From Epilithonimonas arachidiradicis (lineage in GTDB: Bacteria; Bacteroidota; Bacteroidia; Flavobacteriales; Weeksellaceae), in NCBI RefSeq assembly GCF_003610695.1, contig NZ_RAQH01000006.1:124001-188000 (forward strand): a DNA stretch of 64,000 bases, in the 5' to 3' direction. The notes below the pieces were generated by a model. That model ran no database searches. It saw nothing but the letters and a program-made list of their open reading frames with translations, and had not been told where the DNA came from. Position numbers and translations under genes: made by a program. Positions 19,163 through 62,512 of this stretch are shown one piece after another (positions within the stretch are counted from its first letter, which is position 1; each line of letters opens with the position of its first letter).

Positions 19163-19921
19163 ATGAGAAATATTTCAATTTTTTTATTTGTTTTCGTGAT
19201 CGCAGTAATCAAGGCTCAAGTTGTTTCAGATTACAGATATGTTGTGATTCCTGCAGAGTTTAATGATTTCAAAGAAAACAGAACTTATGGCTTGAGCAAT
19301 CAATTAGAAAAAACCTTGAAAGCCAAAAAATATACCGTTCTGCCAGCCACTAAGAATGATTGGCCATCTGATGCGTTGATGAATCCTTGCAGTATTTTGA
19401 ATGCCGAGCTTCTGGATGATAAAAGCATGTTTCGTAATAAACTGATTCTACAGTTCAAAGATTGTAGCAACAAAATCGTTTTTACAGAAAAAGGAAGCAG
19501 CACGATCAAAGAGTTTGAACCGGGCTATCAAGATGCTTTGAAGCAGATATTAACTAAAATTCCTGCTTCTAATCCAACTGTAACTGTCAATAAACTTGCT
19601 GAAACAACAGCTTCGGAACCTGTTAAAAAAGAATTACAAGGCTCAAAAGAAACCATTTTACAAACATCAAATGCCGTGCGATATAGCAACGGAACATTGG
19701 CTTTACAAAAGATCCAAATTGATAACAGTCAGTTTATTTTGGTTGATAGCAATAGTTCTGTTCCTTTTGCAACCTTCAAATCGACTGCAAAGAAAGATGT
19801 TTACAGAGTAAAATTAGGTTCTGGCGAATCGACAATCGGGTATTATGAAAACGGAAATATCGTTATAGAAATGCCAAAAAGCAATGGAGAATTTGCAAAT
19901 GAAATCTTTACTGCGAACTAA
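19163..19921 (+). CDS. Secreted protein of unknown function
   Basis: 252 residues with signal peptide MRNISIFLFVFVIAVIKAQ. The N-terminal half (VSDYRYVVIPAEFNDFKENRTYGL, LEKTLKAKKYTVLP) resembles the start of periplasmic proteins that build a Rossmann-like fold; the C-terminal part has the pattern FATFKSTAKKDVYRVKLGSGES. No sorting domain or lipobox. It is 14 bp downstream of the PorV/PorQ gene and ends in a strong terminator, so it is the last gene of that operon. Family not recognised; a periplasmic partner of the barrel is a guess. Confidence 0.7.
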   Translation: MRNISIFLFVFVIAVIKAQVVSDYRYVVIPAEFNDFKENRTYGLSNQLEKTLKAKKYTVLPATKNDWPSDALMNPCSILNAELLDDKSMFRNKLILQFKDCSNKIVFTEKGSSTIKEFEPGYQDALKQILTKIPASNPTVTVNKLAETTASEPVKKELQGSKETILQTSNAVRYSNGTLALQKIQIDNSQFILVDSNSSVPFATFKSTAKKDVYRVKLGSGESTIGYYENGNIVIEMPKSNGEFANEIFTAN

Positions 19922-19945
19922 TTAACAATTAATCTTAAGAAAATC

Positions 19946-19973
19946 AAAAAGCTCAGATCACTCTGAGCTTTTT
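19946..19973. terminator. Bidirectional hairpin terminator
   Basis: A perfect 12-bp stem (19946-19957 with 19962-19973) with a TCAC loop, between the converging secreted-protein gene and the peroxiredoxin gene. Confidence 0.9.
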
Positions 19974-19989
19974 CTATGAAAATCTAAAA

Positions 19990-20625
19990 TTATTTATTCG
20001 GTTGTGGTGTGTAGCGCAAATAAGGTTTTACAACTTTTACACCTTTGGTAAATTTTTTCTCTGCGTCTTCCTGGGAAACTGCTGGCGGAATAATCACATC
20101 TTCGCCATCTTTCCAATCAACAGGTGTTGCAACACCATAACCATCTACCAATTGCAAGGAGTCTAAAACTCTAAGTATTTCCGTAAAATTTCTTCCAGTA
20201 GAAGCCGGGTAAGTAATGATTAATCTTACCTTTTTATTAGGATCAATAATCAGTAAAGATCTCACGGTTAAAGTGGCGCTTGCGTTCGGATGAATGAAAT
20301 CATATAATTCTGAAACTTTCTTGTCCTGATCGGCAATGATAGGGAATTCTACTTCCGTATTTTGGGTTTCGTTGATGTCAGAAATCCAACCTTTATGATT
20401 GTCAATTCCATCGACGCTTAAGGCCAGAACTTTTGTGTTTCTTTTATCAAATTCTGGTTTCAGTTGTGATGTTTTACCCAATTCTGTTGTACAAACGGGA
20501 GTGTAATCTGCAGGGTGAGAAAATAATATTCCCCAAGAATCTCCGAGGTATTCGTAAAAATTAAGTTTTCCTAAACTGCTTTCTGCATCAAAATTGGGAG
20601 CGGTATCGCCAAGTTTTATAGACAT
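19990..20625 (-). CDS. 1-Cys peroxiredoxin (Prx6 type)
   Basis: 211 residues. The peroxidatic cysteine is C45 in DYTPVCTTELG, with the Prx6-type C-terminal region (LQLVDGYGVATPVDWKDGEDVIIPPAVS). Prx6-type enzymes reduce hydrogen peroxide and organic hydroperoxides in the cytosol with an external thiol. A bacillithiol donor is conceivable, because bshA is nearby, but this is inference. The length and all main motifs are intact. It is probably monocistronic, between two hairpin terminators. Confidence 0.93.
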   Translation of the reverse strand: MSIKLGDTAPNFDAESSLGKLNFYEYLGDSWGILFSHPADYTPVCTTELGKTSQLKPEFDKRNTKVLALSVDGIDNHKGWISDINETQNTEVEFPIIADQDKKVSELYDFIHPNASATLTVRSLLIIDPNKKVRLIITYPASTGRNFTEILRVLDSLQLVDGYGVATPVDWKDGEDVIIPPAVSQEDAEKKFTKGVKVVKPYLRYTPQPNK

Positions 20626-20716
20626 ATTTTTAATATTTTATGATTAATGGAAAACAAATTTAGCAATAAATATTTCAATTCATACTAATTTAGTATTATT
20701 TATTTTCGATCATAAA

Positions 20717-20739
20717 AAAACCACAGATCCTGTGGTTTT
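20717..20739 (-). terminator. Hairpin terminator of the lipoprotein gene
   Basis: A 10-bp stem with an ATC loop (20717-20726 with 20730-20739) and a T-tract on the minus strand, just downstream of the 20762-21277 gene. Confidence 0.85.
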
Positions 20740-20761
20740 AAATTTATTTGTGAAGCTGGGA

Positions 20762-21277
20762 TTATAATGTTCCAACTTTGCTGTCATCGATTTTATATTT
20801 TGCAATAATTTCTTCGTAAGACATTTTCTTCAAATCTTCGGAATTTGCATTTTTTCCATAAACTGCTGGGACTAACACTACTCTGAATGTTTGATTATTC
20901 AAATATTGTGGAGTTGTACTGATATCATATGTTCCTCCGGCATAAATCATAAAATCATTTTTAGAAAAATCAAAATCGTAATCTAGTTCTCCCTCATTCA
21001 AGTAAAGGGTTCTAGGTATTTGTTGCCATACAGGAGAGTTACCAGTTGTTCCCGCTTGTCTGAAGATGATAACATAGTCTTGATCTAACATAGGGTTATT
21101 GAAACTTTGTCCATAATGCCAACCATCCGTTGCATTATATGAAAAATTAACATTTCTCAAATCATATACAGCAGGATAATCCACATCAACTTGTACATAA
21201 TCATCATCGTCATCCTTACAGCTGAAGATGAATAAGCTACCAACGAGCAATAATAAAAGGGGCAAAAACTTTTTCAT
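20762..21277 (-). CDS. Surface lipoprotein of unknown function
   Basis: 171 residues with a lipoprotein signal peptide ending in the lipobox FIFSC. The Cys is followed by KDDDDDY, an acidic stretch matching the Bacteroidetes lipoprotein export signal, so the protein is probably displayed on the outer face of the outer membrane. The mature part is beta-rich (YPAVYDLRNVNFSYNATDG...VIIFRQAG) and ends in a short helix. No family recognised. Confidence 0.75.
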   Translation of the reverse strand: MKKFLPLLLLLVGSLFIFSCKDDDDDYVQVDVDYPAVYDLRNVNFSYNATDGWHYGQSFNNPMLDQDYVIIFRQAGTTGNSPVWQQIPRTLYLNEGELDYDFDFSKNDFMIYAGGTYDISTTPQYLNNQTFRVVLVPAVYGKNANSEDLKKMSYEEIIAKYKIDDSKVGTL

Positions 21278-21392
21278 AGGTATAAATATTTACGTTAAAT
21301 TTTTAATTACAAATTACAGACCATAAAAATAGCTAATTTCCGTGGAATTAATATCTTTATGGAAACTTTCTAAAATTTTAGATTTTCAAAAT

Positions 21393-23141
21393 ATGAAAAG
21401 GTTAAGTCTTCTTGTAATAACTTTTATTTCTCAATTTTATTTTGCTCAGTATCAGCCTAAAAATATTTCCAATTCGGATATCAAAAAAGCCAATGATTGG
21501 GTAGATAAAACTTATAACTCGCTTTCCCAGGATGAAAAATTGGGACAGCTTTTTATTGTTGCACTTTATACTAACAAAGGTGAGGATTTTATTAATCAGA
21601 TCAGGAATATCGTTGTCAATGATAAAATAGGCGGATTGATTCTGATGCAGGATGACGCTGCAAGAGAAATTAATCTGGTTAATGAATTCCAGTCCAAATC
21701 AAAAGTGCCGCTGATGATTGGTATGGATGCGGAATGGGGACTATTTCAAAGAATAGCAAAAGCTCACAAATATCCTTGGGCCATTGCACTTGGTGCGATT
21801 CAGGATAAAAATCTGATTTATGAGATGTCTGCAAAGATTGCTGAAGATTGCAAGAGAATGGGCATCAATTGGGACTTTGCACCTGTTGTGGATGTCAACA
21901 CCAATCCCAATAATCCGATTATCGGAAACCGTAGTTTCGGTTCGGATGTTAACAATGTGGTGAATTCTGCTTTGGCCTACTCCAATGGTTTGCAGGATAA
22001 CAGAATTCTTGCGGCGATAAAACATTTCCCGGGTCATGGCGATACAGATACAGATTCGCATCTGGATTTGCCAGTTGTTTCTCATAACCTGGAAAGATTA
22101 GAAAAAACGGAAATTGCACCTTTCAAGGCATTAATGAATAAAGGTGTTGGTGGCGTTATGGTCGCGCATCTCTATGTTCCGGCTTTGGAAAATGAAAAGG
22201 GAATTCCGGCTTCGGTTTCCAAAAAAATAATAACAGGACTTTTAAAGGAAAAGCTTGGTTACAAAGGTCTAATTATTACGGATGCATTGAATATGGGTGC
22301 AGTTGCAAACAAGTTCAAGGCTGGAGAGTTAGATGCATTAGCTTTCAAAGCAGGAAATGATATTATGTTATTTTCGCAGGATGTTGCAACTGGAAAGAAA
22401 CTGATTCAAAAAGCGATTGATAATGGCGAAATCCAACAAACCAGAGTAGAAGAGAGTGTTAAGAAAATTCTTTTGACCAAATATTATCTTGGTTTGAACC
22501 AATACAACAGCATCAATCCTGAAAACGTTAACGAAGATTTGAATAATGCATCACATTCGGCTTTGGTTCAGAAAATGTACGCCAATGCTTTGACATTAAT
22601 CAAAGATGATAAAAAGTTATTGCCATTGGATTGTAAAGAAACTTATTATTACGTTCCGTTAGAAGAAGCGCCCTATGATACTTTCCTGAATCAAATCAAT
22701 ACAGGTACAACTGTAATTCTTAAAAAAGCTAATGAAATCAATATAATTCCAGCCAATTCGAAAGTGATTGTTGGCTTTCATAAAGATAATTCTACAGCTT
22801 ATAGACCTTACAAAATTTCTGACGCAAGCAAGAAGGTTTTATCAGATTTAAGTAAAAATCAAAGTGTAATTCTGGATGTTTTCGGAAGTCCTTATGCTTT
22901 GAAAGATATTGATATTTCTAAAATTTCCACGGTTTTGGTCTCTTATGAAAATAACGACGACTCAATGAAAGCCACAGCTAGCGGAATTCTCGGACAAACC
23001 AAAATTTCAGGAAGACTTCCGGTTTTGGTGAATGACACTTTGAAATTCGGAATAGGAATAGATGTTGAGGCTAAAATTCAAAATCAAACTGATAGAAAAA
23101 ATAGTTCAGAAACCAAAAATTCTAAGGCTGTAATTGAGTAA
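21393..23141 (+). CDS. Secreted GH3 beta-N-acetylhexosaminidase (NagZ-like)
   Basis: 582 residues with signal peptide MKRLSLLVITFISQFYFAQ. It is a glycoside hydrolase family 3 protein with LIGLD-type barrel segments (LMIGMDAEWGLFQRI, WDFAPVVDVNTNPNNPIIGNRSFG), the catalytic loop KHFPGHGDTDTDSH (about 210-223, with the His/Asp pair typical of NagZ) and the nucleophile Asp in TDALNM (about residue 297). Known NagZ enzymes release N-acetylglucosamine from muropeptides. The signal peptide suggests periplasmic action in cell-wall recycling. The C-terminal 200 residues form a second GH3 domain. The start is the ATG before the signal peptide; an upstream in-frame ATG at 21342 is less likely. Confidence 0.9.
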   Translation: MKRLSLLVITFISQFYFAQYQPKNISNSDIKKANDWVDKTYNSLSQDEKLGQLFIVALYTNKGEDFINQIRNIVVNDKIGGLILMQDDAAREINLVNEFQSKSKVPLMIGMDAEWGLFQRIAKAHKYPWAIALGAIQDKNLIYEMSAKIAEDCKRMGINWDFAPVVDVNTNPNNPIIGNRSFGSDVNNVVNSALAYSNGLQDNRILAAIKHFPGHGDTDTDSHLDLPVVSHNLERLEKTEIAPFKALMNKGVGGVMVAHLYVPALENEKGIPASVSKKIITGLLKEKLGYKGLIITDALNMGAVANKFKAGELDALAFKAGNDIMLFSQDVATGKKLIQKAIDNGEIQQTRVEESVKKILLTKYYLGLNQYNSINPENVNEDLNNASHSALVQKMYANALTLIKDDKKLLPLDCKETYYYVPLEEAPYDTFLNQINTGTTVILKKANEINIIPANSKVIVGFHKDNSTAYRPYKISDASKKVLSDLSKNQSVILDVFGSPYALKDIDISKISTVLVSYENNDDSMKATASGILGQTKISGRLPVLVNDTLKFGIGIDVEAKIQNQTDRKNSSETKNSKAVIE

Positions 23142-23147
23142 ATTTAT

Positions 23148-23689
23148 AACCACAAAAGTCACAAAAGTTTTTTAGATTTTATAAAGTTAAAATAGAAAAC
23201 TAAAAAGAAATGATAACACAATCTTATTTAACAGATTTGACTTATAAAATTAATGGAGCTTGTATAGAAGTTCATAAACATTTAGGTCCGGGATTATTGG
23301 AAAGTATTTATTGTGAAGCATTGAAGGAAGAATTTGCATTAAGAAATATTAATTTCAAATCAGAATTTAGAATTGATGTTATTTATAAAGAGAAAGTTTT
23401 AAATTGTGATTTCAGATGTGATTTTCTAATTGAAGAAATAATCGTTTTGGAAATAAAATCTGTCAAAAGAATTGAAGATATTCATAAAGCACAACTTTTG
23501 AATTATATGGGATTATTAAAAATCCCGAAAGGTATTCTTATTAATTTCAATGTAAAAAATATTTTTCATGAAGGACAAGAAACATTTGTTTATAAGCATT
23601 ATGAACAATTAATGTAACTCGAGAATTTATTTTTACTTTAAATATTTACAATAATCTTTAAAAACAAATCTTTTGTGACTTTTGTGGTT
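23148..23689. mobile_element. GxxExxY cassette bounded by perfect 20-bp inverted repeats
   Basis: The 20 bp at 23148-23167 (two CACAAAAG-type units) recur as an exact reverse complement at 23670-23689. Between them lies only the 135-codon GxxExxY gene and about 40-55 bp on each side. The cassette begins 6 bp after the stop of the GH3 gene and ends 17 bp before bshA. A related sequence without the gene occurs at 41569-41652, and a half end at 44949-44965. The design resembles a small mobile cassette, but no transposase is present and mobility is an inference. Confidence 0.6.
23210..23617 (+). CDS. GxxExxY protein (PD-(D/E)XK nuclease-like)
   Basis: 135 residues with the motif that names the family, G28-LL-E31-SI-Y34, in GPGLLESIY. 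A PD-(D/E)XK-like core follows: D71 in RCDFLIEE and E81-I-K83 in VLEIKSV, then the helix HKAQLLNYM and a C-terminal GILINFN strand. The fold belongs to the restriction-endonuclease-like superfamily (PF13366). Biological function is not established. It lacks a signal peptide and should act in the cytoplasm. It is the only gene in an inverted-repeat-bounded cassette. Both acidic residues and the Lys are present, so nuclease activity is possible. Confidence 0.9.
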   Translation: MITQSYLTDLTYKINGACIEVHKHLGPGLLESIYCEALKEEFALRNINFKSEFRIDVIYKEKVLNCDFRCDFLIEEIIVLEIKSVKRIEDIHKAQLLNYMGLLKIPKGILINFNVKNIFHEGQETFVYKHYEQLM

Positions 23690-23706
23690 TAAAAAAATAA
23701 TAAAAA

Positions 23707-24861
23707 ATGAAAATAGGAATACTTTGCTATCCAACTTACGGCGGAAGCGGAATTGTGGCAACAGAATTGGGAATGTCTTTGGCCGACAAAGGTTATGAAG
23801 TCCATTTCATAAGTTCGGCATTGCCGGCACGTTTAGATGTTACCAATCCGAATATTTTTTTCCATAAAGTCAACGTGCAGACTTATCCGTTGTTCCAATA
23901 TCAGCCTTACGATATCGCCTTGTCTTCAATGATTTATCGTGTCGTGAATCTTTATAAATTGGATATTTTGCACGCCCATTATGCGATTCCTTATGCTTAC
24001 GCAGCTTTTACAGCCAAACAAATGTTGAAAGCTGAACACAAAGATGTGCCTTTGGTGACAACACTTCACGGGACGGATATTACGCTTGTTGGTCAGCATC
24101 CAAGCTACAAGCACGCTGTGGAATTTTCTATTAATCAGAGCGATACAATCACTTCGGTTTCCGAAAGTCTTAAAAAAGACACTTTGCAATTTTTCAATAT
24201 TCAGAAGGAAATTCAAGTCATAACCAACTTTATTGACAATTCTGTTTTTGACGAAGATTGCAAAACCTGTCAGCGTGAGCAGTTTGCAAGTGATGATGAG
24301 AAGATTCTGATTCACGTTTCCAATCTTCGTCCGGTTAAGAGAATTCAGGATGTTCTGGAGATTTTCAAAAATGTCAACAAGAAAATTAAATCCAAACTGA
24401 TAATCATTGGCGAAGGGCCTGATATGGAGAAGATTTCCGAATTTATGGAAAATAATCCGGACTTGATTGGTAAAATCAAATTGCTTGGAAAAGTCAACGA
24501 TTTGTACAGGATTCTGCAACTATCAGACGTCTTTCTTTTACCTTCCGAACAGGAGAGTTTTGGTTTGGCAGCTTTGGAAGCAATGGCAGCCAGAACGCCG
24601 GTTATCAGCAGTAATGCAGGGGGAATTCCGGAAGTTAATATCCAAGGCGAAACTGGATTTTTGGCAGAAACCGGAAATGTGGAAGCGATGTCCAATTACT
24701 GTATCAAATTGTTGAGTGATGAGAATCTTCTCGAAGAAATGAAAAAGAATGCAAAAGCCCAAGCCATTCATTTTGATTTGAAAAATATTCTTCCGATTTA
24801 TATTGATATGTACGAAACGACCATTGCAAAATTCGAAGAAGCGAAGTATAAGCAAGTTTGA
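23707..24861 (+). CDS. bshA: N-acetyl-alpha-D-glucosaminyl L-malate synthase
   Basis: 384 residues, the standard length for this GT4 glycosyltransferase. The N-terminus MKIGILCYPTYGGSGIVATELG, LHAHYAIPYA and the GT4 C-terminal signature PSEQESFGLAALEAMA with GGIPEV are characteristic of BshA. It joins L-malate to UDP-GlcNAc, the first step of bacillithiol synthesis, in the cytoplasm. The other bsh genes are not in the window. The start is the ATG directly before MKIGIL. Its upstream region includes the right end of the GxxExxY cassette, so the insertion may have altered its promoter (inference). Confidence 0.93.
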   Translation: MKIGILCYPTYGGSGIVATELGMSLADKGYEVHFISSALPARLDVTNPNIFFHKVNVQTYPLFQYQPYDIALSSMIYRVVNLYKLDILHAHYAIPYAYAAFTAKQMLKAEHKDVPLVTTLHGTDITLVGQHPSYKHAVEFSINQSDTITSVSESLKKDTLQFFNIQKEIQVITNFIDNSVFDEDCKTCQREQFASDDEKILIHVSNLRPVKRIQDVLEIFKNVNKKIKSKLIIIGEGPDMEKISEFMENNPDLIGKIKLLGKVNDLYRILQLSDVFLLPSEQESFGLAALEAMAARTPVISSNAGGIPEVNIQGETGFLAETGNVEAMSNYCIKLLSDENLLEEMKKNAKAQAIHFDLKNILPIYIDMYETTIAKFEEAKYKQV

Positions 24862-24888
24862 TAGGATATTAAGTTTTCTACTTTTACA

Positions 24889-24974
24889 AAGTCTTTGACT
24901 CCGTTCAGACTGACACTTTAAAATTAAATATTTAGTATTAGAGTTGTCACGCTGAGCGGAGTCGAACTGTTTTT
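24889..24974 (+). repeat. MITE-like imperfect inverted repeat, copy 1
   Basis: About 86 bp with terminal inverted repeats: GACTCCGTTCAGACTGAC near the left end and GTCACGCTGAGCGGAGTC at the right. The interior shares TATTAGAG followed by TGTCAC with copy 2 at 25904-25990, in the same orientation. It lies just after bshA. Confidence 0.7.
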
Positions 24975-25089
24975 AAGGGAAGTATTTTAATATATAATTA
25001 TTTGAACATAAGTGTTTTGTTGAAAATAATTTTATAAATTAGAGAAAAATATTTCTAATAAATTATTGAATCATCAAAAGCACAACATT

Positions 25090-25890
25090 ATGAGTATCAA
25101 AAAACACTTTCTTGCGATCTTCTTTTTGTTAATTGGCTTCTTAGCTTATTCCCAAACCGATACCATTACAATGACCGACGGTAGCGAGCTCCGCGGAAAA
25201 GTCGTTAAGTATAATCCGAATGATATTACGTTTGTCCATCAGAATGAAACCTTGGAATACACGCTCAACAAAAAAGACATTTCCAAAATCACATTTTCTT
25301 CCGGCCGCATAGAGTATCTTAATGCGACTGCTATTACGCCGAACACTTCACAGTCCGTAGATTACAAGAATAAAGTAGCGATTTTGCCTTTCAGATATGT
25401 AAGAGATCAGGAAAAAAGCAACGAGACAATGACGAAGAAAATCCAACAGGAAACGTACACGATTTTCAATTCCAAGAAACAGAATCTTAAGTTCCAGGAC
25501 CCTACGGAAACCAACGCACTATTGTACAAAGCCGGAATCAATGAAAGTAATATGCAAGGCTTCACGATGGGCGAGATTGCCCATATCCTGAATGTGGAAT
25601 ACGTTGTCAGCGGAATGGTTTCTGTGGAGAAAACCAATACTTACACATCCAACTACGGTAGCTCCAATACCAATGTTTCGCAAAAAAATAACGGTGCCAA
25701 GGTCAATTCTACAGGTTCGTCTTCTTCTACAACGTATCAGAATTACAACACCAGCATCACAATGAACATCTTTTCTGTGAATGGTGACAATCTCTTTACG
25801 CAGAATCACAATTCGTTCTGGCCATACGAAGATGCGTATAAAACCACTTTGGATTATCTGGCGAAACGCACGCCGCTTTATAAAAGATAA
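25090..25890 (+). CDS. Secreted protein with SH3-like and CsgG/LpoB-like regions
   Basis: 266 residues. Signal peptide MSIKKHFLAIFFLLIGFLAYS; a short beta-barrel-like region (TITMTDGSELRGKVVKYNPNDITF) typical of small SH3-like modules; then a region beginning KVAILPFRYVRDQ with GEIAHILNVEYVVSGMVSVE, the pattern of CsgG/LpoB/FlgT-type domains that bind periplasmic or outer-membrane partners. A Ser/Asn-rich low-complexity loop follows at about 205-225. No lipobox, so it is periplasmic or secreted. The start is the ATG before the signal peptide. The gene is bounded by two similar repeats. Specific role unknown. Confidence 0.7.
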   Translation: MSIKKHFLAIFFLLIGFLAYSQTDTITMTDGSELRGKVVKYNPNDITFVHQNETLEYTLNKKDISKITFSSGRIEYLNATAITPNTSQSVDYKNKVAILPFRYVRDQEKSNETMTKKIQQETYTIFNSKKQNLKFQDPTETNALLYKAGINESNMQGFTMGEIAHILNVEYVVSGMVSVEKTNTYTSNYGSSNTNVSQKNNGAKVNSTGSSSSTTYQNYNTSITMNIFSVNGDNLFTQNHNSFWPYEDAYKTTLDYLAKRTPLYKR

Positions 25891-25903
25891 ATTTAAGAAT
25901 ATA

Positions 25904-25990
25904 AAAGTCTTCGACTCCGCTCAGACTGGACAATTTTCAATATAAAGTTTGCTATTAGAGATGTCACACCGAGCGGAGTCCAAGTGTTTT
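25904..25990 (+). repeat. MITE-like imperfect inverted repeat, copy 2
   Basis: About 87 bp, same design and orientation as 24889-24974: CTTCGACTCCGCTCAGACTG on the left and GTCACACCGAGCGGAGTCC on the right. It starts 13 bp after the stop of the enclosed gene and may act as an mRNA 3' hairpin. Confidence 0.7.
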
Positions 25991-26041
25991 GAATTATTAA
26001 TTAAAATTTCAAAATGTACTTTTAAAATATTTCTGTAACTT

Positions 26042-26074
26042 AACCTTCCGGAGTTTTTCTTCGGAAGGTTTTTG
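26042..26074 (+). terminator. Hairpin terminator upstream of the DUF2851 gene
   Basis: AACCTTCCG (26042-26050) pairs with CGGAAGGTT (26062-26070), followed by T residues. It closes the transcript of the 25090-25890 gene beyond the repeat. Confidence 0.8.
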
Positions 26075-26096
26075 TTTAACGGAAATCACAACACAA

Positions 26097-27365
26097 ATGA
26101 ATGAAGAAATATTGCAATATATCTGGAATTATAAAAAATTCCGGAACTTCGATTTCATCTCGACGGATGGACGGGTTATCGAAGTTTTAGAATTCGGTGA
26201 GCGGAATAATAACTCCGGGCCTGATTTTCTCTTTGCTAAGATTAAGATTGACAACATCATTTTCGCTGGCAACATCGAGATTCATACCAAAGCTTCCGAT
26301 TGGTTTTTCCACAATCACTCGGGCAATCCAGAGTTTGGAAACCTGATTCTCCACGCCGTCTATATCAACGATTGTGAAATTCCGGAATTGGAGAAACAGA
26401 ATATTCCAACGCTTGAACTTAAAAATTATATTGATGAAGAACTGATTCAGAAACATCAGAATCTGAAAGCAGAGCATTCTTTCATTGCTTGCGAAGAGCT
26501 GTTTGATGTGAGCAAAATTCCACTCTTTTTCGAGGAAACAGTTTTATTAAAAAAGCTGGAATTCAAATCGCAGGCTTTTCAGGAGTCGCTTACCAACAAT
26601 CAAAATAATTACGAAGCAGTTTTATTTCAAAATCTGGTTTACTCATTTGGTTTGAAAGTGAATGCCGATATCTTTCTCCAAATGGCGCAAAGTCTGGACT
26701 TTGCTGTCATTCAAAAAATAAAGCAGAATGATATCCATCTGGAAGCTTTGTTCTTCGGTATCTGTGGCTTTCTGGATGCGCCGCAGGATGAGGTAATGAA
26801 AATCTGGAAACGCGAATTTGAGTTTCTTAAAGTGAAATTTAATTTACCTGGCGTTCGAATTCATCCTAAATTTTCAAAACTTCGTCCTCCAAACTTTCCA
26901 ACCATCCGACTGTCGCAATTGGCCAATCTTTATCATTCTCAACCCAATCTTTTCTCAAAACTGATTGATGCAAAATCGATTGATGATTTGTACAGAATTT
27001 TTAGAGATGTCAAAGCTTCGGAGTACTGGGACAACCGGTTTAATTTTGGAAAAATTTCAAGTATTGAAGGAAAAAAATATCTGAGTCAGGATTTTGTTGA
27101 TTTGATTATCATCAATACGATTTTGCCTTTGAAATATTTCTATCATAAAAATCACAATCCGGAGATAGTTGATGATATCTTTGATTTCTACAAACAGATG
27201 AAACCAGAGAAAAATTCAGTTTTAGACGAATGGAAAGAGTTGGGAATGAAATTTGAAAATGCGCTGCAGACACAGGCTTTTCTTTATCAGTACAAATTAT
27301 TTTGCACTCCGAAAAAATGCTTAAATTGCAGTATTGGTTTTCAGCTTCTGAAAACTGAAAATTAA
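26097..27365 (+). CDS. DUF2851 family protein
   Basis: 422 residues, the normal length of this Bacteroidetes family. The N-terminal part has the conserved NSGPDFLFAKIKIDN...GNIEIHTKASDW segment, which looks like a PD-(D/E)XK-type core (D and E residues on adjacent strands with a following K), and the C-terminus has a four-Cys tail (CTPKKCLNCSIGF). No signal peptide. A nuclease-like fold is suggested by the first 120 residues, but no function is established. The PspC-like gene starts 5 bp downstream, so the two are co-transcribed. Confidence 0.8.
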   Translation: MNEEILQYIWNYKKFRNFDFISTDGRVIEVLEFGERNNNSGPDFLFAKIKIDNIIFAGNIEIHTKASDWFFHNHSGNPEFGNLILHAVYINDCEIPELEKQNIPTLELKNYIDEELIQKHQNLKAEHSFIACEELFDVSKIPLFFEETVLLKKLEFKSQAFQESLTNNQNNYEAVLFQNLVYSFGLKVNADIFLQMAQSLDFAVIQKIKQNDIHLEALFFGICGFLDAPQDEVMKIWKREFEFLKVKFNLPGVRIHPKFSKLRPPNFPTIRLSQLANLYHSQPNLFSKLIDAKSIDDLYRIFRDVKASEYWDNRFNFGKISSIEGKKYLSQDFVDLIIINTILPLKYFYHKNHNPEIVDDIFDFYKQMKPEKNSVLDEWKELGMKFENALQTQAFLYQYKLFCTPKKCLNCSIGFQLLKTEN

Positions 27366-41553: not shown

Positions 41554-41568
41554 ATTTTTCGTTTTCCT

Positions 41569-41652
41569 GCAAAAGTCACAAAAGTTTTAGTGATTTCTTC
41601 AACTATCAAAATGCTTGTGCTCTTTGTGAAAATCTTTGTGCCTTTGTGGTTA
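41569..41652. repeat. Empty relative of the GxxExxY cassette
   Basis: The left end GCAAAAGTCACAAAAGTTTT matches the left end of the cassette at 23148, and the right end (AATCTTTGTGCCTTTGTGGTT with TAA) matches its right end with small changes. Only about 40 unrelated bases lie between. It sits in the gap between the AraC and serine hydrolase genes. Confidence 0.55.
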
Positions 41653-44699: not shown

Positions 44700-44810
44700 T
44701 CAGGAGCCGGGAACCTGCTTTCAGATGCAATCTTTTTTGCATCACGCTTTGTCAGACTGAGATTCTCGAAGTCCACGCAAAAAAGGATTTCCACTGCAAT
44801 CAGGGCTATG
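44700..44810 (-). repeat. Dispersed flavobacterial element, copy B
   Basis: On the minus strand it reads from TAGCCCTGATTGCAGTGG through TCCTTTTTTGC, a variable loop, GCAAAAAAGATTGC, to GGCTCCTG. The paired TTTTTTGC/GCAAAAAA tracts match copies A and C. Its loop includes TGTCAGACTGAG...TCGAAG, which resembles the right end of the MITE-like repeats at 24889 and 25904. Confidence 0.6.
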
Positions 44811-44948
44811 GATTTTGTTTTTCAATCCAAGATTTATCAAACCATAGAAATTAATAAAACTCAAAATCGAAATTCCAAAAATTGAAGTGCTTTTATGTGA
44901 ACTAAATTAAAAATCAAATAATTCACTTAAGTGCTTATAAAAAAAACT

Positions 44949-44965
44949 ATTGTGTCTTTTGTGGT
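44949..44965 (+). repeat. Solitary right end of the GxxExxY-type repeat
   Basis: TTGTGTCTTTTGTGGTT differs at one base from TTGTGACTTTTGTGGTT in the right inverted repeat at 23670-23689. No matching left end was found nearby. Confidence 0.4.
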
Positions 44966-52500: not shown

Positions 52501-52539
52501 AACCTGCCCTTCCTCCGAAAGCATCTATTTAAATTAACA

Positions 52540-52700
52540 TTGGCAGGTCTCCTGACTTTCGCAGATTTTGTGCCTTCTCATCAGCTTTTGGCGGACAATG
52601 GCGAGATTACAAAATCTTTTATCACGATCTACAGTTGCGGGGACAGTCGGAGAATTACACTCCGTTCCCTTTTAATCCCGAATAAAACTCGGAAACCAAA
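52540..52700 (-). ncRNA. Cobalamin riboswitch
   Basis: On the minus strand, in order: GGTTTCCGAG, GATTAAAAGGGAACGG, the B12-box-like CTGTCCCCGCAACTG, AAAGCTGATGAGAAGG, and the terminal box GAAAGTCAGGAGACCTGCC. These are the conserved elements of the AdoCbl-type riboswitch. The last box ends about 40 nt before the btuB start codon, so control is probably of translation initiation. Confidence 0.93.
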
Positions 52701-52706
52701 GTGCGG

Positions 52707-52714
52707 CAAAGATA
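52707..52714 (-). promoter_or_regulatory. -7 promoter box of the riboswitch transcript
   Basis: TATCTTTG on the minus strand, immediately upstream of the riboswitch sequence. It places the transcript start near 52700. Confidence 0.6.
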
Positions 52715-52751
52715 AATATAATTAAATTAGGATTGATGTATTTTAAAAAGA

Positions 52752-62374: not shown

Positions 62375-62512
62375 TTAGGAGCAACAGGATTAGTCGTTCT
62401 TTCACCATCCACACCCGCTATCCACTATATCTTTTTCTTTTTCCAACGCTCAGGCTGCGCCTGTCCAAAGCTAAAAAGAAAAAGGATGCCGTTCCTATCG
62501 GGGCTAGAATCA
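62375..62512 (-). repeat. Dispersed flavobacterial element, copy C
   Basis: On the minus strand: TAGCCCCGATAGGAACGG, ATCCTTTTTCTTTTT, a 30-40-nt GC-rich loop, AAAAAGAAAAAGATATAGTG, GATAGCGGG and the end GCTCCTAAAAA. The order of blocks matches copies A and B. It sits directly after the porX terminator. Small open frames here are not believed to be genes. Confidence 0.65.

Follow-up and report, generated by a model that had tools for sequence, protein, structure and literature searches.

What is a GxxExxY gene doing between two perfect inverted repeats? GxxExxY genes are common yet unexplained, and one of them lies in a 64,000-nucleotide stretch of the Epilithonimonas arachidiradicis genome (assembly GCF_003610695.1, contig NZ_RAQH01000006.1, positions 124,001 to 188,000; hereafter the window), where the gene and its repeats, here called arms, form a compact cassette. 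We put at about even the chance that this cassette is one copy, with a gene, from a family of palindromic elements, a two-part system resembling the repetitive extragenic palindrome (REP) doublets forming hairpins (REPINs) and their REP-associated tyrosine transposases (RAYTs), with a nuclease unrelated to RAYT. This reading rests on the single gene between two-unit inverted arms, on 39 gene-less arm pairs and on an internally deleted form in two congeners, and further on differences at orthologous sites, on arms that are steadier than third codon positions and outer flanks, and on covariation of arms and protein across loci.

A single gene between unit-built arms

The cassette comprises the following features (positions are those of the window).
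23148..23167, plus strand: left arm, units ACCACAAAAG and TCACAAAAG, 102 near-copies in the genome and 9 in the control
23168..23209, plus strand: left spacer, with a weak inner inverted motif (AAAGTTAAAATAG-like) in loose pairing with the right spacer
23210..23617, plus strand: GxxExxY protein gene, 135 amino acids, PD-(D/E)XK fold
23618..23669, plus strand: right spacer, carrying the partner of the inner motif, TTTTTACTTTAAA
23670..23689, minus strand: right arm, exact reverse complement of the left arm

Sequence comparison confirmed that the left arm, AACCACAAAAGTCACAAAAG, is the exact complement of 23670-23689; with mismatches allowed, the arms extend to 23143-23171 and 23666-23694 (29 nt, 90%). 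The two units of an arm are spaced 9 bp apart, and the alignment of the arms continues through the inner motif of the left spacer. Similar inner motifs are present in some other cassettes and some short elements. The enclosed gene shares its strand with both neighbours, a family-3 glycosyl hydrolase (GH3) gene upstream (21342-23141, PF00933) and bshA downstream (23707-24861; TIGR03999, 524.9 bits against a cut-off of 273.7). Exact 20-bp repeats, each of two units, around one GxxExxY gene of PD-(D/E)XK-like fold between GH3 and bshA had been described in the initial annotation, and this description holds throughout.

The cassette protein matched TIGR04256 (GxxExxY; 1.2e-38, 132 bits against a curated cut-off of 35) and PF13366 (PDDEXK_3; 1.8e-37, 128.7 bits against a curated cut-off of 22), and structure comparison found its fold similar to Cas4. 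The D-ExK active site is intact, with D71, E81 and K83 invariant in 27 aligned sequences (the window protein and 26 of the 70 relatives found). By its model, the protein is an intact PD-(D/E)XK nuclease with predicted activity. A sequence search for a relative with a solved structure gave no match at E 1, and no phage-borne relative was matched among 50,697 phage records at E 1e-5.

PF13366 matches were found in 93 of 148 genomes of the family and in 101 of 198 genomes phylum-wide. In the source genome (G000; other G numbers denote compared genomes and L numbers loci), a profile search gave six matches: the window gene, L066 (arm score 35), L067, L068 in two pieces and L069, a weak match in a 362-aa frame. 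L068 (G000:C1:99180-99529) is a broken GxxExxY copy with degenerate CACAAAG-type arms (arm score 40).

The arms form a dispersed family

When the 3.65-Mb source genome was searched with the 19-mer arm at up to 3 mismatches, 52 + 50 matches were obtained (102 in total), against 4 + 5 (9 in total) for the reversed pattern; the arm is therefore not a chance sequence. Pairing the arms in stretches fetched around these matches, with at most 5 mismatches per arm and 7 over both, gave 39 further inward-facing pairs of 48-176 bp that lack a GxxExxY gene. A further 21 arms were left unpaired by the script, a few of them with a poor partner close by. Among the pairs seen in the source genome, GxxExxY is the sole enclosed gene. 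The base flanking the pair is A at the left in 36/39 and T at the right in 34/39, which sets the usual length of the inverted repeat at 20 bp. When folded as single-stranded DNA, four elements all paired their arms (z -6.6 to -10.9).

The interiors of the short elements, compared for the 28 of 39 that are at least 45 nt long, are partly alike (19 of 378 pairs score at least 30, against 0 for the flanks), the common part being the inner inverted motif. No significant GxxExxY remnant was detected in the stretches with short elements, and the 8 of 51 stretches fetched around repeats that were compared with Rfam gave no match. Most of the 39 pairs (36) lie in gaps between open reading frames (ORFs), 2 were not placed and 1 apparently lies within a short ORF. 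Gene 3' ends are close, at a median of 10 nt from the element, with 24 of the 36 measured ends within 12 nt. This position just after stop codons perhaps results only from the loss of other insertions.

The GH3-bshA site differs between congeners

We compared the bshA site across the genus (23 genomes). Four genomes, G000, G017, G004 and G011, have the cassette with its gene at full length, while the cassette gene of G005 is without 11 codons, E20 included. G002 and G013 carry a short element made of the two arms and the gene's first codons, and gene-less elements can therefore arise through internal deletion. One or both arms remain as remnants, with no gene, in G022, G010, G015, G006 and G014. 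Empty GH3-bshA junctions, which the initial annotation had proposed to look for, are present as well: the site is element-free, 57-81 bp, in G016, G009, G021, G007, G008 and G018. Other small ORFs occupy it in G003, G012 and G020; GH3 is not beside bshA in G019, and no bshA match was found in G001. GH3 adjoins the GxxExxY gene in five named or binned relatives, including Epilithonimonas hispanica, E. hominis and E. bovis. In G017, G004 and G011 (L150, L152 and L153), a third arm in forward orientation directly follows the GxxExxY stop codon.

A second site (L019, 662-714) carries the window's arm type, with differing loops, in G000, G017, G016, G009 and G010, another arm type in G022, G015, G006, G003, G020 and G008, and neither in G018, G001 and G021. 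GxxExxY cassettes at other places in the genus have ends similar to this other arm type; in the case of L188, left halves scored 33-43, against shuffled maxima of 25-27 and 20-24 for the window's own arms. Site E2 of L019 was considered as an empty-site test and was unusable, since its gene content differs.

Arms accompany the gene and vary with the protein

Of the close relatives tested, 59 of 69 are flanked by inverted repeats scoring at least 32, a score reached by 22 of 2084 control pairs; one of the 70 relatives (L075) was left out at a contig end. These loci are not independent, falling into 15 upstream contexts, with 34 loci in one. Arms were also found at 17/30 best-match loci and 18/40 further copies in the family set (control 8/259), and at 16/30 loci in the phylum-wide set (control 1/357). 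The unit sequences vary, and include CACAAAAG, CACATAG, CATATAAG, CGCAAAG, CACAGAG, CACAGATT and CACGGAT. Among 105 left arms from pairs scoring at least 30, the unit step is 9 bp in 62, 8 bp in 13 and another length in 3, with none seen in 27. Eight plasmid matches and one Syntrophaceae locus were checked in addition, and clear arms were found in Bernardetia (36), Bacteroides (45) and Syntrophaceae (84); the Treponema, Gemmatirosa, Sphingomonas, Fusobacteria, Prevotella and Persicobacter loci scored 21-24, which is chance level, some of them with units visible by eye.

Arm similarity correlates with protein identity (r 0.585 over 96 loci; permutation maximum 0.163). This set was reduced from 143 loci to 99 (arms of at least 30, protein of at least 100 aa, no stops) and to 96 by removing identical proteins, a filter that inflates r and leaves armless loci outside. 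A fairer figure comes from loci with different upstream neighbours, where arm similarity is 0.654 in 159 pairs above 70% protein identity and 0.22-0.26 in pairs below 50%; with one locus per context, r is 0.31 (n=29). Paralogues within a genome differ in their arms, with a mean similarity of 0.28 in 21 pairs (loci labelled by genome) against 0.63 in 1143 cross-genome pairs above 60% identity. At L103, L110, L113 and L230, the proteins are ~70% identical to that of the window and the arms are of CACATAG type instead of CACAAAAG; this is probably a recent change of repeat code, and would be useful for finding specificity residues.

These comparisons show that the gene travels with its arms, which is distinct from one recognising the other. 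One gene type with one arm type recurs at several unrelated loci, congeners have the GH3-bshA site occupied, in part deleted or empty, and the arms follow the protein across neighbours. Movement as a unit, which the initial annotation had raised, is therefore well supported. The refuting conditions named in that annotation turned out in its favour, in that most close homologues are armed and element-free sites exist.

Two further results reach beyond joint travel, the first being that the arms are conserved. At one locus type (33 loci, Chryseobacterium and kin), arms are 92% identical between species, although placing them by best consensus match biases this slightly in their favour; codon position 3 is at 60%, the right spacer at 55% and the outer flanks at 42-50% ungapped or 65-70% gapped. 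Arms so far above third positions and flanks are under selection or kept alike. A variant set (32 of the 33 loci and L091, without L112, 6 dropped) gave 96% for the arms, with 91% at codon positions 1+2 and 62% at position 3, which indicates purifying selection on the gene in this one context and reduced set. The reading frame is broken in 5 of the 33 loci.

For the second, we surveyed 148 genomes of the family for a link between gene and dispersed repeats. At least two repeats are present in 32 of 33 genomes with a close gene relative, against 3 of 55 without any GxxExxY gene; two matches may be the cassette's own arms, and at least four are present in 29 of the 33. The 64% identity cut for a close relative was set after seeing the data and includes CACATAG-armed proteins (e.g. 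L103 and L230). Taken genus by genus, the link is weak (p 0.017 in g41; not significant in g35, g25, g38 and g1). Ten Flavobacterium-type genomes all hold at least 5 copies of their arm, having been chosen for that arm at the locus, which is itself worth two matches.

Proposed mechanism and alternatives

We propose that the GxxExxY protein, as a Cas4-like PD-(D/E)XK nuclease, acts by recognising the tandem units in the arms around its gene, perhaps as a hairpin or cruciform, and would cut at or near the element ends. Cutting, together with host repair or replication, would then spread the cassette and the gene-less copies within the genome, a route similar to the one proposed for REPINs and their RAYT transposases. 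Such a putative action on the arms, also suggested in the initial annotation, is plausible, and fits the intact active site, the conservation of the arms and the link between gene and dispersed repeats; that the nuclease drives the movement is what we infer.

Several observations weigh against this proposal. Arms would be tied to protein equally well if they and the gene shared their descent and no recognition took place. By score, 13 of 30 family loci and 14 of 30 phylum loci are armless, as are by this measure all but one of the five loci beyond Bacteroidota (1/5 with clear arms), and in the source genome the L067 arms score 22, which is chance level, with units visible by eye. The best Foldseek E for the cassette protein is 3.1e-3. 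No target-site duplication was found: at lengths of 2-9 bp and shifts of 0-3, the 39 elements did not exceed shuffled partners. Most interior pairs, all but the 19 of 378 mentioned above, are dissimilar. In the genus, 12 of 21 genomes are without a close gene relative, and 11 of those 12 have at least 4 repeat matches. G014 holds 38 arm copies (at most 1 mismatch) with no PF13366 match; either repeats persist after the gene is lost or they are maintained by something else. Lastly, inverted unit-built arms (score of at least 32) flank 16 of 32 unrelated S23-type (PF05635) genes lying between protein genes in the same bacterial family, against 9 of 352 controls (L070, L071, L072 and L281-L309; 8-bp units, AATAAAGA, TTAGAATT and others), and the source genome's own S23-type copies score 43, 27 and 34. 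This similarity weakens a nuclease-specific reading: cassettes of this plan may have arisen more than once, or the arms may serve a common host process.

The S23-type genes are kin of the genes in the intervening sequences (IVSs) of 23S ribosomal RNA (rRNA), and they favour an explanation at the RNA level. There, the arms would pair in the transcript, the stem would be processed by RNase III or protect the message, the element would spread by an RNA route and the protein would be a helper or passenger. Tandem GACAGAT heptamers precede the S23 ORF in the Coxiella IVS, according to an excerpt of PMC4990558, and the closeness of our elements to stop codons points the same way. Both neighbours are known for 39 of the 42 distinct contexts, and 35 of the 39 are co-directional on both sides; the excess over background is only moderate (508 of 623 adjacent ORFs across the loci and 39 of 53 in the window are co-directional). 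The gaps holding short elements are tandem, convergent and divergent in numbers (26/5/5) that match the window's ordinary gaps (27/5/5), and arm variants are not compensatory, with 5 of 76 shared against 3.0 expected from random pairing and a maximum of 11. At site E1, a matched change in one unit was read by eye in congeners G009 and G016. We regard the RNA-level account as unlikely, though the strongest of the alternatives. Conservation of the arms, purifying selection on the gene and the short distance to gene 3' ends would also suit host-useful repeats, in which the arm pairs are intercistronic hairpins (message ends or supercoiling sites) bound by GxxExxY as a domesticated host factor. 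The flank composition has no T-run, hence these are no classical terminators, and both the broken frames and the differences between congeners speak against such a role, which we consider improbable. An unlinked transposase might instead move the arms as its ends, with GxxExxY as cargo caught in one copy. Inverted ends with gene-less short copies do look like miniature inverted-repeat transposable elements (MITEs), and G014 keeps many repeats with no GxxExxY match. On the other hand, there is no target duplication, the genome has 0 matches to the Y1 transposase (PF01797; other transposase families, such as DDE, were not searched), and GxxExxY is the one gene enclosed here and is again enclosed by unrelated arm types elsewhere. 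We consider this explanation improbable too.

Comparison with known systems

The nuclease-based system that we favour resembles REPIN/RAYT most closely in its layout. An excerpt of PMC3116915 describes a gene beside palindromic repeats that are dispersed as inverted pairs, and here too a gene stands beside palindromes, the same repeats occur between genes as inverted pairs around a short spacer, and the repeat is subtype-specific. RAYTs, however, are Y1 (HUH) transposases, whereas the cassette gene encodes a PF13366 nuclease in a genome without a PF01797 match. The arms are tandem 9-bp units and not REPs; where REPs carry GTAG/CGTC tags, as in the title of PMC3733652, the arms read ACCACAAAAGTCACAAAAG with no such tag. 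Like the cassette, a 23S rRNA IVS is a small one-gene insert between inverted repeats, with the heptamers of Coxiella as a further likeness, but IVSs lie in rRNA and are excised from RNA, and their protein is an S23 four-helix bundle unrelated to that of the cassette, which lies between protein genes.

Some insertion-sequence and MITE-type elements make no target-site duplication. Our short gene-less elements share inverted repeats with MITEs, as well as an internal deletion of the gene-bearing form at one site; they differ in having no transposase parent found (Y1 alone searched), no target duplication and mostly dissimilar interiors. The fold and active-site pattern are those of Cas4, lambda exonuclease and Hjc. 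Cas4 proteins carry iron-sulphur cysteines, whereas the cassette protein, of 135 aa, has no invariant cysteine in the 27-sequence alignment, and none of six neighbouring proteins scanned (19163-27362) is a Cas protein. Since REPIN/RAYT, insertion sequences and MITEs, IVSs and Cas4 each fail a tested feature, we rate the system as apparently new in kind and probably working like REPIN/RAYT, a rating drawn from anatomy and comparison in which the enzyme's part is conjectural. Among open PMC papers, we found none on repeats at GxxExxY genes; the name GxxExxY turned up in two papers of the library searched, in one passage each, and neither passage is about repeats.

A wider view is possible, which we hold only tentatively. 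This would be a transposase-free mobile system, widespread in Bacteroidota and beyond, in which a solo Cas4-like nuclease cuts the arm units and copies both the cassette and gene-less palindromes under a subtype-specific repeat code; the S23 genes would be a second, unrelated family with the same plan, and the rRNA IVSs its best-known special case. The arms give GxxExxY genes a context and, in their flanking units, a likely target. Such a system would account for anonymous intergenic repeat families in these bacteria, would be REPIN-like on a different enzyme and would place two puzzling small-gene families, GxxExxY and S23, under one element plan. Exchanging partners between subtypes can serve as a test of recognition, since every protein subtype comes with a separate repeat. 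The arm pairs lacking the gene, of which there are dozens, the REPIN/RAYT likeness and the S23-type genes with similar unit-built arms go beyond the initial annotation.

Other features of the window

Two further arm-like sequences were located in the window.
44947..44965, minus strand: lone arm copy, 2 mismatches (G000:C6:168947-168965)
41566..41584, plus strand: weak arm-like match, which may be chance, 3 mismatches (G000:C6:165566-165584)

Two Flavo-1 RNAs lie on the minus strand at 44707-44811 and 62407-62509, the former ~135 bp away from the lone arm. The window also contains a cobalamin riboswitch at 52525-52715 on the minus strand (103.4 bits).
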